This document shows positions 5,824-47,154 of a stretch of DNA of 64,000 bases, in pieces. The stretch covers positions 1,883,501 through 1,947,500 of the forward strand of contig NZ_CP020814.1 of the NCBI RefSeq assembly GCF_002109385.1. Direction: 5' to 3'. Numbering within the stretch: position 1 is the stretch's first letter; each line of letters starts with the position of its first letter. The notes below the pieces were generated by a model. That model ran no database searches, had not been told where the DNA came from, and was given only the letters and a program-made list of their open reading frames with translations. This DNA comes from Halalkalibacter krulwichiae (GTDB lineage Bacteria > Bacillota > Bacilli > Bacillales > Bacillaceae_D). The position numbers were made by a program, and so were the translations under genes.

Positions 5824-6757
5824 AATATGTAGAATCTTTTAAATTCGTCTGATCTATCGGAAAATATTCCATGAATCTTCTTGATGCCTGGGAGAGATAA
5901 CGGTCTTTTAACCAGATAAGTGCGGAGGGCCTAGCCATAATCGTTGGATTTATAATTTCCTTAAAAAAAAGTTCGGTGTTTGGAATTAGATTGATTGCTG
6001 ATTTTGGGACAATTGTAATTCCAATATCATGATTTGCCCAAATTAATAATGTCATTATATCACTGCTTTCGCAGATGATTTTAGGTTCAAATCCGTTTTT
6101 TAAGCAAGCATCTTTAAGAATATCAACTGTATAAATATCTTGGTTATACATAGAAGTTCCTTTTTGCCTACGTAATAGCATTAACGGTTTTTCTTTTAGT
6201 TCCGATAATTCAATTGTATTTGGATTATTTCCGATAATTCTATTAGGATTCATTGCTACAACTAACGGTTCATCGGGTAAATGAATCATATTAAAAATAC
6301 TCGAATCAATAGGGAACCGAACGATTCCTAATTCAATAATTCGATTTTCTAACAGCTCCATGATCCTAATAGGATCTCCTTCCCAAACTTGAAATTGAAC
6401 TTCTGCATATTGTTGTTGAAAGTTACGAATTCTCTCTGGTAGTAATTTGGCTCCAAGTGAAGCAATAGTGCCAATTGAGAGTGTACCTTTCGTCCCTTCT
6501 GACAATTCTTTCATTTCCTCTAAAGTACCAGACATTAACTCTAATATTTGCTTGGCACGATTATAAAGTAGTTTTCCTTCGTCTGTAATAATTAATTTTC
6601 TTGTATGTCTTTCAAACAACGTTACACCTAATTCACTCTCTAATAATTTTAATTGTTGACTGAGTGGAGGTTGAGCCATATGCAATCGCTTAGCTGCTCG
6701 TGAAATTTTTCCTTCCTCTACTATCGTAGTGAAATATCGTAGGTGTCGAATATTCAT
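5822..6757 (-). CDS. LysR-family transcriptional regulator, probable regulator of the tct operon
   Basis: This is a 311-residue LysR-type protein. The N-terminal winged helix-turn-helix (residues 1-60) contains the typical MNIRHLRYF start, AAKRLHMAQPPLSQQLKLLE and LFERHTRKL. Residues 90-305 form the effector-binding domain. The start at 6757 was chosen over the ATG three codons upstream because AGGAAAGG then lies 9 nt away. It is divergent from the tctC-tctA-tctB operon, the classical arrangement in which a LysR protein senses the transported acid and activates the divergent genes. The effector is unknown. It ends in the terminator shared with the 5S gene. Confidence 0.92.
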   Translation of the reverse strand: MNIRHLRYFTTIVEEGKISRAAKRLHMAQPPLSQQLKLLESELGVTLFERHTRKLIITDEGKLLYNRAKQILELMSGTLEEMKELSEGTKGTLSIGTIASLGAKLLPERIRNFQQQYAEVQFQVWEGDPIRIMELLENRIIELGIVRFPIDSSIFNMIHLPDEPLVVAMNPNRIIGNNPNTIELSELKEKPLMLLRRQKGTSMYNQDIYTVDILKDACLKNGFEPKIICESSDIMTLLIWANHDIGITIVPKSAINLIPNTELFFKEIINPTIMARPSALIWLKDRYLSQASRRFMEYFPIDQTNLKDSTY

Positions 6758-7087: not shown

Positions 7088-8101
7088 ATGAAACAAATAT
7101 CATTAAGTGTGAAGCTAACCCTCTTATTATTTTTATTCGTATTAGTAGGGTGTAATCAAAGTACTCAAGAGACGACTGGTGCAGAAGCAAAAGCCGAGAC
7201 AACAAGTGAGCAATCTGATTTCCCGAAAAAACCGATAAATTGGGTCGTTCCTTTTGGACCAGGTTCAGTGACCGATCTAAGTACGCGATTAATAGCTGAA
7301 GAAATGTCGAAAAAATTAGGTGTACCGATCGTAGTAGACAATTTACCAGGTGGAGCAACTGTGCTTGGTCATGTGAAAGTTGCTCAGTCAAAAGCAGATG
7401 GGTATACAGTTGGTACAGGAGCATTGGCAGTAGAAATCACATTAGCTCAAACGGAAGCAGCTATTTCAGGGTTGGAAGATCTAGATGTACTAGCACAAAT
7501 GGGAGAATATATTAATGCAATTAGTGTAAGTGCTGATAGTGAATGGAAAACATTAGAGGAATTAGGTAATTGGGCGGCTGAAAATCAAGGTGAGCTTGTT
7601 GTTACACCATCTGGAACAGGGGGAATTACTCATCTTTGGTGGGATTTAGTAGCTGAACATTTTGGAGCAGAAGACTATGGTTTATTAAGTGCTACAGGTG
7701 GAAATGATGCAATGTTACGCCTGTTATCTGGTGATTCAGATGTCGTTGTTACACCATTAAATGATGCAAAGGAACATGTTGAGGCTGGAAATGTACGTAT
7801 CCTCGCTCTCACAACATCAGATAGAGTGGAACAGGTTGAAGACATACCGACAATCAGTGAATTTGGTGTAGAGAATTCATTAATCCATAACTATTTATTC
7901 ATTGCACCAAATGGTCTACCAGAAGATGTAAGGGAAATCTTGTTATCAACTCTTGAAGGAGTTCTAGCAGATACAGAAGTGAAAAGCAAGCTTGAACAGT
8001 TAATGATGAACAATGTCTTTTTGAAAGAAGAAGAGTTAAAGAAGCAAAATGAAAAAGGGAAAGAAACTATTGAAACGATTATGGAAGATAGAACAGAGTA
8101 A
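7088..8101 (+). CDS. tctC: Tripartite tricarboxylate transporter substrate-binding lipoprotein (TctC family)
   Basis: An extracytoplasmic binding protein anchored by lipid. Residues 1-20 are a signal peptide ending in the lipobox LVGC, followed by a Thr/Glu-rich linker. The mature part begins with the Bug/TctC signature FPKKPINWVVPFGPGS and goes on with VVDNLPGGATVLGHVKVA, the usual ligand-binding loops. It should capture a carboxylate and deliver it to TctAB. ATG 7088 has GGTGG 7 nt upstream and gives a compact signal peptide; ATG 7082 or 7043 are possible alternatives. It is the first gene of tctC-tctA-tctB. The ligand cannot be told from sequence. Confidence 0.92.
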   Translation: MKQISLSVKLTLLLFLFVLVGCNQSTQETTGAEAKAETTSEQSDFPKKPINWVVPFGPGSVTDLSTRLIAEEMSKKLGVPIVVDNLPGGATVLGHVKVAQSKADGYTVGTGALAVEITLAQTEAAISGLEDLDVLAQMGEYINAISVSADSEWKTLEELGNWAAENQGELVVTPSGTGGITHLWWDLVAEHFGAEDYGLLSATGGNDAMLRLLSGDSDVVVTPLNDAKEHVEAGNVRILALTTSDRVEQVEDIPTISEFGVENSLIHNYLFIAPNGLPEDVREILLSTLEGVLADTEVKSKLEQLMMNNVFLKEEELKKQNEKGKETIETIMEDRTE

Positions 8102-44709: not shown

Positions 44710-45177
44710 ATGGGACAAACATTTGAAGGACATTTAGTAGGTACAGGTTTAAAAGTTGGGATTGTTGTAGGACGTTTTAATGAATTTATTACAAGTAAAT
44801 TATTAGGTGGAGCCCAAGATGCGCTAAAGCGTCACGGCTTGAATGAAGAAGATGTTGATATCGCTTGGGTACCTGGTGCGTTTGAAATCCCTTTTGCAGC
44901 GAAAAAAATGGTTGATACAGGTAAATATGATGCGGTTATTACTCTAGGAACTGTAATAAGAGGAGCAACGCCTCACTTTGATTTTGTTTGTAATGAAGTA
45001 GCGAAAGGCGTCTCGCAATTATCATTAACTTCAGGAAAGCCTGTTATCTTTGGTGTACTGACAACAGATACAATTGAACAAGCGGTTGAAAGAGCAGGGA
45101 CAAAAGCTGGAAATAAAGGTTGGGATGCGGCAACAGTTGCGATCGAAATGGCTAACCTAGGCAAAACATTTGAATAA
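44710..45177 (+). CDS. ribH: 6,7-dimethyl-8-ribityllumazine synthase
   Basis: 155 residues. Characteristic strands are [52 protein letters not shown] with the catalytic His, and [20 protein letters not shown]. It builds 60-mer capsids in Bacillus that enclose riboflavin synthase. GAGGAGG precedes the ATG. It is the last riboflavin gene before the insertion sequence; a terminator follows at 45230. Confidence 0.97.
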
Positions 45178-45229: not shown

Positions 45230-45270
45230 CGTCTTCAAAGGTCAGAAAAGGCTTTTAGGCGTCTTTTTTT
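45230..45270 (+). terminator. Terminator after ribH
   Basis: GACGTCTTCAAAGG pairs imperfectly with AAGGCTTTTAGGCGTC and is followed by T7. The IS target repeat begins inside this T tract. Confidence 0.65.
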
Positions 45271-45275
45271 AAATA
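45267..45275 (+). repeat. Target-site duplication, left copy
   Basis: TTTTAAATA is repeated exactly at 46971-46979, immediately outside both ends of the IS element. Confidence 0.85.
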
Positions 45276-45302
45276 GGCTATGTTAATTAACTCTGTTGAT
45301 AT

Positions 45303-45331
45303 TTGATAAAAGCGAACGAATGTTCTATAAT
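45303..45331 (+). promoter_or_regulatory. Sigma-A promoter of the transposase
   Basis: TTGATA and TATAAT are separated by 17 nt, a near-consensus promoter just inside the left end of the IS. Confidence 0.8.
45313..45326 (+). promoter_or_regulatory. Candidate LexA (SOS) box in the transposase promoter
   Basis: CGAACGAATGTTCT agrees with the Bacillus LexA consensus CGAACRNRYGTTYG at 13 of 14 positions and lies in the spacer and first base of the -10 box. Binding there would block RNA polymerase. Confidence 0.55.
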
Positions 45332-45363
45332 ATAAAAAAGAATGTTCGTTTGGAGGGTTTGGA

Positions 45364-46413
45364 ATGACGTTAAGAGAGTTAATAGCAGAAATTAAAAAAT
45401 TGAATTCCGCAGGACAGCATCGTTTAAAAGAATTCTTTATTAATTCTATTGCGTCATTTTCAGCCAGTGAACCAGTATTTCAAGAAGTGACTGAACGTAA
45501 AAATAAAAATGGATATACTTGCGTACATTGCAGTTCTAAACAGGTGGTTCGTTTCGGTAAATATAAGGTGAAAATTGGTCTTAAAGAAGTTGAACGCCAA
45601 CGATACCGTTGTAAAGATTGCAGAAAAACATTTACAGATGTAACCCCAACGCCTCTGTACCGAAATCATAAGCCTGATAAATGGTTAGATTTCATTAAAT
45701 GTATGTTGGAAGGCTATTCTCTTCGCAAATCGGCAGACCTTATTGGTGATGTTCATTTCGTTACACTTTTTTATTGGAGACATAAGGTGTTGTCTGCATT
45801 AAAGCAAATGGACTTTAATGAATTTTCAGGGATTGTAGAGATGGATGAAACCTATTTTTTGTATTCTGAAAAAGGTAAAAGAAACATTGAAGGGCGTAAG
45901 TCTCGCAAGCGTGGTGGCTCCTCAAGATTTCGTGGGATTAGTCACGAACAGGTTTGTGTCCTAATCGCACGAGACCGACAAAAAGCAACTTTTTCAGGGG
46001 TTCTTGGTACTGGTCGTATTATCAAAACTCAATTGGATAAAGCAATCGGCTCAAAATTGTCTTCGGACAATACACTTTGTACCGATGCTTGGAGAGCATT
46101 TTCTACCTATGCAAAAAGCAAAGGGTTGGAACATTATCGCTTTAAATCAGATGGTACAGAGCGTGTTAAAGGTCTTTATCATATACAAAATGTCAATAAC
46201 TATCACAGTCGATTAAAAGGTTGGATACAAAGATTTAATGGCGTGGCTACAAAATACCTCGATAATTATTTGAGCTGGTTTCACTTCTTAGATGTAGTTA
46301 AACATCGTAGCGATAACGAAACAGTGAGTAAAATGATTGTAGAAAGCTCATTATTTTCATCCAATGAAACGTATAAAAGTCTAAGAATGATGAAATTTAA
46401 ACAAACTGCTTAG
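45364..46413 (+). CDS. IS1595-family (ISXO2-like) transposase
   Basis: 349 residues. The N-terminal part has a zinc ribbon (CVHCSSKQ...CKDCRKTF, residues 52-80) that replaces the leading zinc finger of IS1595 transposases. The ISXO2-like catalytic domain follows: first Asp in VEMDETYF (about 160), second Asp in CTDAWRAF (about 240), and NYHSRLKGWIQRFNGVATKY with the family's GV.TKYL motif near 280-300. The third catalytic residue is not assigned with certainty. TTTGGAGG lies upstream of ATG 45364. The frame is complete and undamaged, so it may be active. Confidence 0.92.
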   Translation: MTLRELIAEIKKLNSAGQHRLKEFFINSIASFSASEPVFQEVTERKNKNGYTCVHCSSKQVVRFGKYKVKIGLKEVERQRYRCKDCRKTFTDVTPTPLYRNHKPDKWLDFIKCMLEGYSLRKSADLIGDVHFVTLFYWRHKVLSALKQMDFNEFSGIVEMDETYFLYSEKGKRNIEGRKSRKRGGSSRFRGISHEQVCVLIARDRQKATFSGVLGTGRIIKTQLDKAIGSKLSSDNTLCTDAWRAFSTYAKSKGLEHYRFKSDGTERVKGLYHIQNVNNYHSRLKGWIQRFNGVATKYLDNYLSWFHFLDVVKHRSDNETVSKMIVESSLFSSNETYKSLRMMKFKQTA

Positions 46414-46444
46414 TTTTACAATAGTCTGGGGGGAGTTGTTTTTT

Positions 46445-46909
46445 ATGAAGAGAGGAATTAGCTTTGAAATTCCAAATGAATATGGAACCTTTCTTGGAGA
46501 AGTGCTAAAGCCAATTGACACAACTGTTTTCAGTTGGCGAATTGGTAACGGTGAGTCATATATAGTAGTTGATGATGAATTAGATGAAGAGCTTTTCTCA
46601 GAAGATAAAAAAGCAATTGAAGGTGCAGAACTCAAAAAACTATTAGAAAACAATAAGTATTATATTATTTTCGCTGACTTACAAGCATATCCAAAAGATG
46701 AATTTTCTGATATTGAGACCTATGAAGATTTTATTAAGAGCCAATGTGAGCTTGTTTTATTAGTGGTCGATAGCTGTTATGTCACTATCTATTGCAAAAA
46801 TAAGGAAACAATCGAATTACTATACAAGAATGCAACACAATGTGGATTTGAAGATGTTGAATATATTACCGATGAAAACGATACAAGAACAAGGCTATCT
46901 GCGTGGTAA
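46445..46909 (+). CDS. DUF2691 family protein, passenger gene inside the IS
   Basis: 154 residues. It starts with MKRGISFEIPNEYGTFLGE and contains FSWRIGNGESYI, which I recognise as the Bacillus DUF2691 pattern of unknown function. It lies entirely within the terminal inverted repeats, 31 bp after the transposase stop, with GGGGGAG 9 nt before ATG 46445 (TTG 46436 would sit on the ribosome binding site). It ends at an internal terminator. The strongly acidic composition and the position suggest an accessory or host-interaction role, but no activity is known. Confidence 0.8.
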   Translation: MKRGISFEIPNEYGTFLGEVLKPIDTTVFSWRIGNGESYIVVDDELDEELFSEDKKAIEGAELKKLLENNKYYIIFADLQAYPKDEFSDIETYEDFIKSQCELVLLVVDSCYVTIYCKNKETIELLYKNATQCGFEDVEYITDENDTRTRLSAW

Positions 46910-46913
46910 TGAC

Positions 46914-46946
46914 AAAAAAGACCTTTACGCATAAAGGTCTTTAAAA
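46914..46946 (+). terminator. Internal terminator of the IS
   Basis: AAAGACCTTTA pairs with TAAAGGTCTTT and ends in the right inverted repeat, limiting read-through into ribT. Confidence 0.85.
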
Positions 46947-46970
46947 TCAACATTATTATTTAACATAGCC

Positions 46971-46979
46971 TTTTAAATA
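46971..46979 (+). repeat. Target-site duplication, right copy
   Basis: TTTTAAATA directly follows the right end of the IS and equals the left copy at 45267-45275. Confidence 0.85.
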
Positions 46980-47154
46980 AAAAGAGAAGTGAATTCAAAG
47001 AACAAAAAGAAAAATAATGCATATTGTAAATAAAGAACTTAATATATATGAAAAAAAGTCAACGAATTCTAATGAAATATGATAGAATAAATAGTGGTGA
47101 AAGCGCATACGAAATCAGCCTGTTGAGGCAAAGAAAACGTAGAGAGGTATTGTT

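Follow-up and report, generated by a model that had tools for sequence, protein, structure and literature searches.

A DUF2691 gene as cargo of an IS1595-family element in Halalkalibacter krulwichiae, with a candidate SOS-type promoter and, in its lineage, a likely partial coupling to integron-like cassette arrays in Bacillales

The element and its two genes

We analysed a stretch of 64,000 nucleotides from Halalkalibacter krulwichiae (NCBI RefSeq assembly GCF_002109385.1, contig NZ_CP020814.1, positions 1,883,501 to 1,947,500; hereafter, the window), in which an intact insertion sequence (IS) of the IS1595 family, 1,695 bp in length, encloses a transposase gene and a gene of the DUF2691 family between its ends. 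A preliminary description had placed the transposase and a 154-residue gene within one pair of terminal inverted repeats (TIRs) flanked by a 9-bp direct repeat. The sequence and the domain matches bear this out; the limits then given, 45267..46979, mark the outer borders of the two direct repeats, and the element proper occupies 45276-46970. Based on the comparisons reported below, we consider it very probable that this is an IS1595-family transposon that moves its transposase gene together with one co-directional cargo gene, that its transposase is transcribed from an SOS-type promoter, and that in a sister subclade the cargo is exchanged as a cassette between two sites, S and E.

The longest inverted pair between positions 44900 and 47400 has arms of 40 nt (45264-45303 and 46943-46982) that are 80% complementary and contain both 28-bp TIRs, the left one, GGCTATGTTAATTAACTCTGTTGATATT, having as its partner the complement of the right one. 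A scan of the window with the TIR pattern, at a threshold of at least 15 of 20 informative bases, matched only the two ends of the element, and the direct repeat TTTTAAATA was present on both sides. The transposase matches PF12762 with 52.6 bits (cut-off 27) and the NCBIfam model transpos_IS1595 (NF033547) with 210 bits (cut-off 75), while the second gene, which begins 31 bp after the transposase stop on the same strand, matches PF10903 with 213.7 bits. IS1595 elements have GGC ends and 8-bp target repeats. The ISXO2-like DDE transposase domain, the TIRs and the short target repeat assign the element to this family. The coordinates of all features are given in Table 1. On the plus strand, no T run follows the hairpin that precedes the right TIR, and one DUF2691 locus of another genome (L006; loci are labelled L and genomes G throughout) ends in a stem that is similar by eye.

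Table 1. Features of the element and its borders (positions count from the first letter of the window)
Feature	Position	Strand	Basis and remarks
Target direct repeat, left copy, TTTTAAATA	45267..45275		9 bp; sequence
Left TIR, GGCTATGTTAAnTAAnnnTGTTGATnTT	45276..45303	+	Inverted-pair search and TIR scan; similar core in relatives
Predicted transposase promoter	45303..45331	+	-35 TTGATA 45303-45308, 17-bp spacer, -10 TATAAT 45326-45331; 11/12, consensus match only
Candidate LexA (SOS)-type box, CGAACGAATGTTCT	45313..45326		In promoter spacer; 18.2 bits with a position weight matrix (PWM) from lexA promoters only
Second, weaker LexA-box-like dyad, AGAATGTTCGTTTG	45339..45352		By eye; resembles host lexA-promoter box CGAACAAACATTCT on the other strand
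IS1595-family (ISXO2-like) DDE transposase, 349 amino acids (aa)	45364..46413	+	Intact open frame; domain matches
Ribosome-binding-site-like sequence ahead of cargo gene, GGGGGGAG	46428..46435	+	By eye
Cargo gene, DUF2691 protein, 154 aa	46445..46909	+	Intact open frame; 252 homologues
Hairpin between cargo and right end, 11-bp stem, AAAGACCTTTA/TAAAGGTCTTT	46917..46942		Terminator-like on minus strand only
Right TIR	46943..46970	-	Inverted-pair search and TIR scan
Target direct repeat, right copy, TTTTAAATA	46971..46979		9 bp; sequence

IS1595 and IS1 elements that carry passenger genes have been named transporter IS, or tIS (Siguier, Gagnevin and Chandler 2009, as cited in the available text of PMC3129680, PMC5704250 and PMC8496243). 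The element in the window belongs with them in its transposase family model and in having, inside its ends, a passenger unrelated to transposition, here DUF2691 and in sister elements unrelated cargo; it differs in that a whole lineage keeps one slot with a swapped gene, a LexA-type promoter box and, in part, cassette-type sites. MTnSag1/tISSag10 and tISCpe8, the latter linked to lincomycin resistance by the title of a reference in PMC5704250, are IS1595-type elements that likewise combine transposase and cargo; these are, however, mobilizable elements, and ISSag10-type transposases are ~34% identical to that of the window.

A cargo slot with changing content

Our census of related elements comprised 77 loci, drawn from transposase searches, 18 hand-chosen places among the further matches and two plasmid matches, of which 75 were distinct (L171 = L149 and L180 = L160). 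Both ends were mapped in 47 loci, and in 45 of these, the window included, the transposase was at least 50% identical to that of the window; the 45-element count thus leaves out 28 of the 75 loci in which at least one end was not found by the TIR pattern on which the mapping relies, and two below 50% identity. The transposase gene and the right end are separated by a slot in 43 of the 45 elements (338-2379 bp, median 651 bp), the only cargo-less forms being L164 and L168, of 1,116 bp each. The longest slot open reading frame (ORF) of at least 60 aa has the direction of the transposase in 41 of the 43; it runs opposite in L116, and L157 has none. After exclusion of L182, whose slot ORF is a second transposase, the 40 cargo proteins compared fell into 31 groups (BLASTP E 1e-3, single linkage). 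Pfam searches with 20 hand-chosen cargo proteins, 16 from the 45-element set and four from loci with an unmapped left end (L137, L144, L159 and L184), returned a family for 15: YrvL, three GNAT proteins, two alpha/beta hydrolases, a WapI-like immunity protein, NUDIX, a methyltransferase, GrpB, a beta-lactamase fold, an S51 peptidase, HIT, Tubby_C_like and a glycerol-3-phosphate acyltransferase.

Closely related transposases frequently carry different genes. Among the 19 pairs of transposase genes with at least 90% DNA identity over at least 700 nt, 11 have unrelated cargo, such as L153/L189 (96.9%) and L151/L163 (95.4%); of the eight that share cargo, six are copies within the genome G510, the others being L150/L151 and L148/L176. 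G510 contains four 1,844-bp copies (L149 = L171, L172, L173 and L174) at four targets, with a 100% identical GNAT cargo gene and 8-bp target repeats that all differ (TTTTCTAA, TTAAAAAA, AAACGATT and TAGTAATA). These copies, together with the cargo differences between nearly identical transposases, indicate that the unit moves with its cargo and that the cargo changes faster than the transposase. Sequence comparison identifies the slot as a standing feature of the lineage, and the genes it takes are ordinary accessory genes. Of the 45 elements, 34 are flanked by an exact target repeat 8 or 9 bp long; it has exactly 8 bp in 33 of the 44 besides the one in the window. L153 and L166, from different genera, have a common two-gene cargo (156 and 72 aa, the first protein 92% identical) and transposases that are 81% identical in DNA.

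In the preliminary description, DUF2691 was proposed to be an accessory factor of the element, acting in target choice, copy control or host immunity. The gene is a true passenger, since it is enclosed by the repeats, and its co-directional position close behind the transposase gene favours such a role. The element seems not to need it, because in sister elements this place is taken by unrelated cargo: L115, the nearest relative in the census, with a transposase 84-85% identical to that of the window, has a YrvL gene in place of DUF2691, and the 31 unrelated groups described above extend this to the lineage.

The distribution of DUF2691 points in the same direction. A profile scan of contigs from one genome per species gave 102 confirmed stretches, of which the best 80 were analysed. 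A tblastn search of 102 transposases against the 700 bp upstream found a trace in three of the 80 loci, as against none of 400 control stretches: in L084 (Niallia) a transposase of this group adjoins DUF2691, both genes being decayed, and in L006 and L035 remnants of the transposase 3' end lie upstream. In L005 (Viridibacillus), a shorter remnant was seen by eye upstream of an intact DUF2691 gene. The linkage recurs, though rarely, in four of the 80 loci; no upstream transposase trace was seen in the remaining 76. Among 398 evenly sampled Bacilli genomes, a DUF2691 match was found in 46 (43 over the family cut-off) and a related transposase (E <= 1e-30) in 43. Both were present in four genomes as read from the tables (G000, G233, G309 and G423), and on one contig only in G000, the genome of the window.

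The constant association expected of an accessory-factor gene was accordingly not found. Counting the DUF2691 genes near such a transposase had been put forward as a check, with a majority at other places, or copies of the IS ending before the gene, as evidence to the contrary. Most DUF2691 genes do lie elsewhere, and instead of shortened copies we found relatives with other cargo in its place. Given a linkage that recurs rarely, we regard DUF2691 as one cargo among many; its role as a dedicated accessory factor is largely refuted and would now be very surprising. The sparse transposase traces and the scattered matches show it to be a scattered accessory gene that such elements have carried several times.

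DUF2691 shows no sign of phage or plasmid origin: we found none in phage records, none of 63 pattern stretches was confirmed in viral contigs, and a single plasmid record contained it. The ratio of nonsynonymous to synonymous substitution rates (dN/dS) was 0.13-0.29 in four comparisons between DUF2691 genes that did not involve the pair of the window and L005. The predicted structure has a mean predicted local distance difference test score (pLDDT) of 85 and no fold match in the PDB at E <= 0.001; the sole match among PDB sequences was at E 0.73, and no paper on the family was found in the open literature. At three DUF2691 loci, further features were observed. In L009, a TIR-like sequence lies 58 bp upstream of the gene. 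In L006, a stretch of 235 bp at 6501-6735 resembles a miniature inverted-repeat transposable element, with IS1595-type repeats at both ends, ~1.3 kb upstream of the DUF2691 gene with the transposase remnant. In L005, positions 7300-7776 and a second run after ~10.4 kb read N, so that the array and the IS remnant there are only partly visible.

The element lies between two genes that we take, from their protein sequences, to be ribH and ribT, and in the 4.6-Mb host genome it has a single DNA match and its DUF2691 gene a single match. While ribH is present in 13 of 13 genomes of the genus, a related transposase was absent beyond it in all 12 others (~1.5 kb examined in 11 and ~0.25 kb in L203), and the insertion is therefore specific to the genome of the window among those compared. 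In these 12 genomes, ribT follows ribH at ~140-320 bp in seven and at ~1.35 kb in L199, and was not found within the short flank examined in four.

A candidate LexA box at the transposase promoter

The dyad CGAACGAATGTTCT, located between the -35 and -10 elements of the predicted transposase promoter, looks like a LexA operator and agrees with the operator motif of the Bacillales LexA regulon. It was scored with a PWM built from lexA promoters only: 41 genomes of the same order yielded 30 lexA loci, and all 30 contributed to the 83 boxes used. To its 18.2 bits compare the training boxes themselves, of which 75 of 83 reach at least 14 and 80 of 83 at least 11.1 bits. The host lexA promoter has boxes of its own with one to two mismatches to the strict consensus.

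A box of at least 10 bits was found at nt 29-90 from the left tip in 48 of the 55 elements whose left end was mapped, or 46 of 53 once the duplicate rows L171 and L180 are removed, and in 7 of 1,100 dinucleotide shuffles. Located by distance to the start codon, such a box is present in 47 of the 54 clade members (at least 50% identity, window included); two of the seven members without it are doubtful, L124 having a box of 15.0 bits in the tip-based count and the record of L190 starting inside the gene. After grouping at 85% DNA identity, the majority of members have a LexA-type box in 22 of 25 groups, and among more distant relatives it was found in one of 12 (L129). The box lies at ~38, abutting the -10 element, in one subclade and at ~64, downstream of the -10 element, in another, and L164 and L168 have both.

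The GAAC-N4-GTTC dyad could alternatively be a site for the transposase itself or for some other regulator, since its distance of 38-51 bp from the tip places it near the TIR. This is, in our view, improbable: the dyad scores like true operators of lexA promoters, its four central bases vary while the half-sites are constant, and the second subclade has it at another distance from the tip. With the box read as a LexA operator, LexA would repress the transposase promoter, which would open during the SOS response. Since the promoter would then be active, both movement of the element and transcription of the cargo, by read-through and/or from a cargo promoter, may rise after DNA damage.

SOS control of IS transposases is known for few elements, namely IS10, the contested case of Tn5, and ISCR in Escherichia coli, according to the available text of PMC13393415. 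As described there, IS10 and ISCR1/2/8 have a transposase under host SOS control, which in ISCR is exerted by way of a LexA operator within the promoter, and ISCR has adjacent accessory genes that can be likened to the cargo studied here. ISCR elements, however, belong to the HUH family and have the LexA motif of beta/gamma-proteobacteria, whereas the present elements are DDE transposons of the IS1595 family in Bacillales with a Bacillus-type motif. We found no report of a LexA or SOS box in IS1595 elements in the open literature, to which our searches were confined.

S and E sites and integron-like arrays

The cargo of one subclade is bordered by two palindromic sites of 27 bp: S, which follows the transposase stop (...CTTATTCAACTAACGGGGCAG(gttagtt)), and E, which precedes the terminator-like stem ((aactaac)GGGTGCGTTAGTTTAATAAG). 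They look like the double-armed sites of Xer-type recombinases. Scoring only the IS-side halves, with at least 14 matches required, we found an S half in 21 of the 54 slots with a mapped right end and an E half in 21, at least one in 27 and both in 15, as compared with 3 and 9 of 1,080 shuffles. These counts concern the loci by inspection of which the S and E patterns were defined; more independent checks are a class-wide scan with a reversed control, the co-occurrence with a recombinase and the position of breakpoints.

For the breakpoints, we aligned six element pairs that differ in cargo. In L153/L189, identity covers the transposase, ends at the centre of S, AACTAACG, resumes at the centre of E, GGGTGCGTTAG, and from there reaches the tip. 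Two further pairs, L117/L154 and L151/L163, change over at both sites, on or close to the edges that face the cargo; L150/L155 switches at a site on the left only, and L162/L187 and L153/L177 show no switch at S or E. For the subclade with these sites, we propose that the cargo may be swapped in the form of an S-gene-E cassette, through the Xer-type recombinase found in the arrays described below or, alternatively, through homologous recombination across the S and E sites; for the element in the window, which lacks them, this route is not proposed.

Two other explanations bear on how cargo enters the slot. The transposase may itself capture cargo, by using a right-end-like sequence past a neighbouring gene or as a two-copy composite that loses its inner ends, with S and E being passengers of some cargo. 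The near relatives of the window, which mostly carry cargo and lack S and E, the 27 of 54 slots without half-sites, the known cargo-less forms and the two aligned pairs that do not switch at the sites would all be accounted for in this way. The three pairs whose identity stops and restarts at, or inside, both sites argue against it, as does the constancy of the right-end segment and its terminator-like stem while the cargo changes; we regard capture as a real possibility that falls short of probable. Exchange by ordinary RecA recombination at the short common borders of the slot, without a dedicated recombinase, would agree with shared borders that reach past the sites, through the transposase gene and S half on one side and the E half, the terminator-like stem and the TIR on the other. 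The breakpoints of L153/L189, however, fall in the middle of the sites, even though the longer identity on the flanks would presumably be the preferred substrate, and the same sites bound arrays that contain a tyrosine recombinase, which makes this explanation rather unlikely.

The arrays in question are chromosomal. In Bacillales, S and E sites delimit runs of one-gene units (L025, L028, L032, L034, L075, L005, L268, L269, L271-L274 and L308), the gap from E to the next S being 12-31 bp in 37 of the 47 cases under 400 bp. DUF2691 is among their genes: S (at least 17/23) or E (at least 18/25) flanks it in nine of the 80 loci and both do in four, with none in 400 shuffles. NUDIX, a phosphotransferase-like protein, GrpB and a GNAT fragment are also common to slots and array loci; except for DUF2691 the homology is distant, and some of the array matches do not have both sites. 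In the class-wide scan, the strict S pattern occurred in 15 of 398 Bacilli genomes, with 68 copies in G317 and 24 in G140, and the reversed pattern had no occurrence in the genomes listed.

Inside the arrays of L269 and L272 lies a gene for a tyrosine recombinase of ~280 aa, read against the cassettes, which matches Phage_integrase (E ~1e-39) and the Xer/integron recombinase model NF040815 (224-225 bits, cut-off 220). With the IntI-type integrase model TIGR02249 it scores 93-96 bits, below the cut-off of 265. L308 has the same arrangement, with one intact and one interrupted relative, and a second recombinase copy of G317 (L300) also stands amid S and E sites. Relatives of the recombinase (E <= 1e-80) are present in 25 of the 398 genomes and in seven of the 15 with the S pattern (P 7e-6). 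The association is not general, as 13 of 30 recombinase loci have no S or E site within ~1.5 kb, and some sites of L289, L294, L303 and L304 are oriented like the recombinase.

The genome of the window contains three recombinase relatives. One of these, 77% identical, adjoins a single S-ORF-E-like unit at L305 8716-9263 with weak sites (19/23 and 18/25), relative and unit together lying in L305 8716-10198 (C1:3047715-3049197). The other two (L306 and L307), at 52%, stand in regions that by eye resemble duplicated phage DNA.

The arrays resemble integrons, as these are described in the available text of PMC9024848 and PMC3108266, in their one-gene cassettes of the same sense, in the recombination-type sites between them (L025, L028, L034, L075, L269, L272 and L308), and in a tyrosine recombinase of opposite sense (L269, L272 and L308). 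They differ in a recombinase below the integron-integrase cut-off, in sites that show no attC covariation and are like 27-bp double-arm sites, in many units that, by eye, seem to own a terminator, and in recombinase genes without a LexA box. The last point was established at five of five genes tested (best score 5.7 bits), and LexA control of the array recombinase was rejected as a candidate. An attC-like fold of the E-gap-S segment, convincing by eye, was likewise rejected by a covariation test: pairing was no better than that of independent columns for S (115 sites), E (89) or E-gap-S (38; 242 of 1000 permutations as good). Rfam gave four matches (E up to 1) on eight loci, two of them above the gathering score (a T-box and a SAM riboswitch), none fitting the S and E sites.

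Xer dif sites and the pdif modules of Acinetobacter plasmids are 27-28 bp long, have two inverted arms, are recognised by Xer-type recombinases and form the borders of gene modules. In contrast to these, the arrays have the recombinase gene inside, occur in Bacillales and share their sites with the cargo slot of an IS. Firmicutes integrons appear to be very rare, the available text of IntegronFinder 2.0 giving a single complete one, in Limnochorda, besides a few isolated clusters of sites. The titles and abstract openings listed from the open literature contained no description of integron-like arrays in Bacillales, although an earlier one is possible in the subscription literature. Passenger-carrying IS1595 elements are already known; within that scope, we found no printed account of the SOS box or of the cassette system.

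The trimethoprim-resistance gene dfrD stands near a member of this lineage. The record of Enterococcus faecalis plasmid LR961983.1 (L190, 1-3975) starts inside an IS1595 transposase gene with 93.6% DNA identity over 975 nt to a Bacillales copy (L147), followed by an S half-site (17/21) and the gene annotated as dfrD. No right end was found before another transposase-like ORF, and enclosure of dfrD is unproven.

Several observations weigh against reading the element of the window as an SOS-controlled transposon with a cassette-exchanging sister subclade. Its mobility is inferred, because it is present as a single copy, and 11 of the 45 elements have no exact target repeat of at least 7 bp. The dN/dS of 0.73 between the DUF2691 genes of the window and L005 is close to relaxed. 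The boxes used to train the LexA matrix were selected by a consensus with at most two mismatches, and the counts of elements with a box are not independent events because the elements share ancestry. A box of 16.4 bits also lies upstream of the transposase of L129, an IS1595 relative that is 42% identical and does not belong to the clade. The strict consensus CGAACRNRYGTTYG occurs three times in the host genome, at no recognised SOS gene as judged from ORF lists. Two of these sites (L205 and L207; C1:659771 and C1:3851199) are near phage-like genes (integrase, repressor, metalloprotease; from the ORF list) and are possibly prophage SOS boxes. The sites of the element score 11/21 for the S half and 10/20 for the E half, under the threshold of 14, and its genome has no strict S pattern. 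Half-sites were also missing in six of the seven nearest relatives tested (L115, L126, L132, L144, L145 and L184), the seventh, L159, being just above threshold. Finally, switching at both S and E was seen in just three of the six aligned pairs.

Taken with the slot, the turnover of its content, the box and the breakpoints, these points leave as the likely interpretation a transposon lineage whose single cargo gene can be replaced, whose promoter is of the SOS type, and part of which is coupled to an integron-like cassette system of Bacillales. Somewhat less firmly, we lean towards a wider one, in which Bacillales possess an integron-like system of S/E cassettes with an embedded Xer-family recombinase and DUF2691 is one of its cassette genes. 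In this wider interpretation, the IS1595 lineage would carry a single S-E cassette slot and would act as the SOS-controlled mobile shuttle of the system. If cassette arrays and a DNA-damage-controlled transposon are indeed combined in this way, Bacillales would have a parallel route for the rapid exchange of accessory genes. Such a route would help to explain the scatter of genes such as DUF2691 among species, and it would suggest a source of new accessory genes in Gram-positive bacteria.

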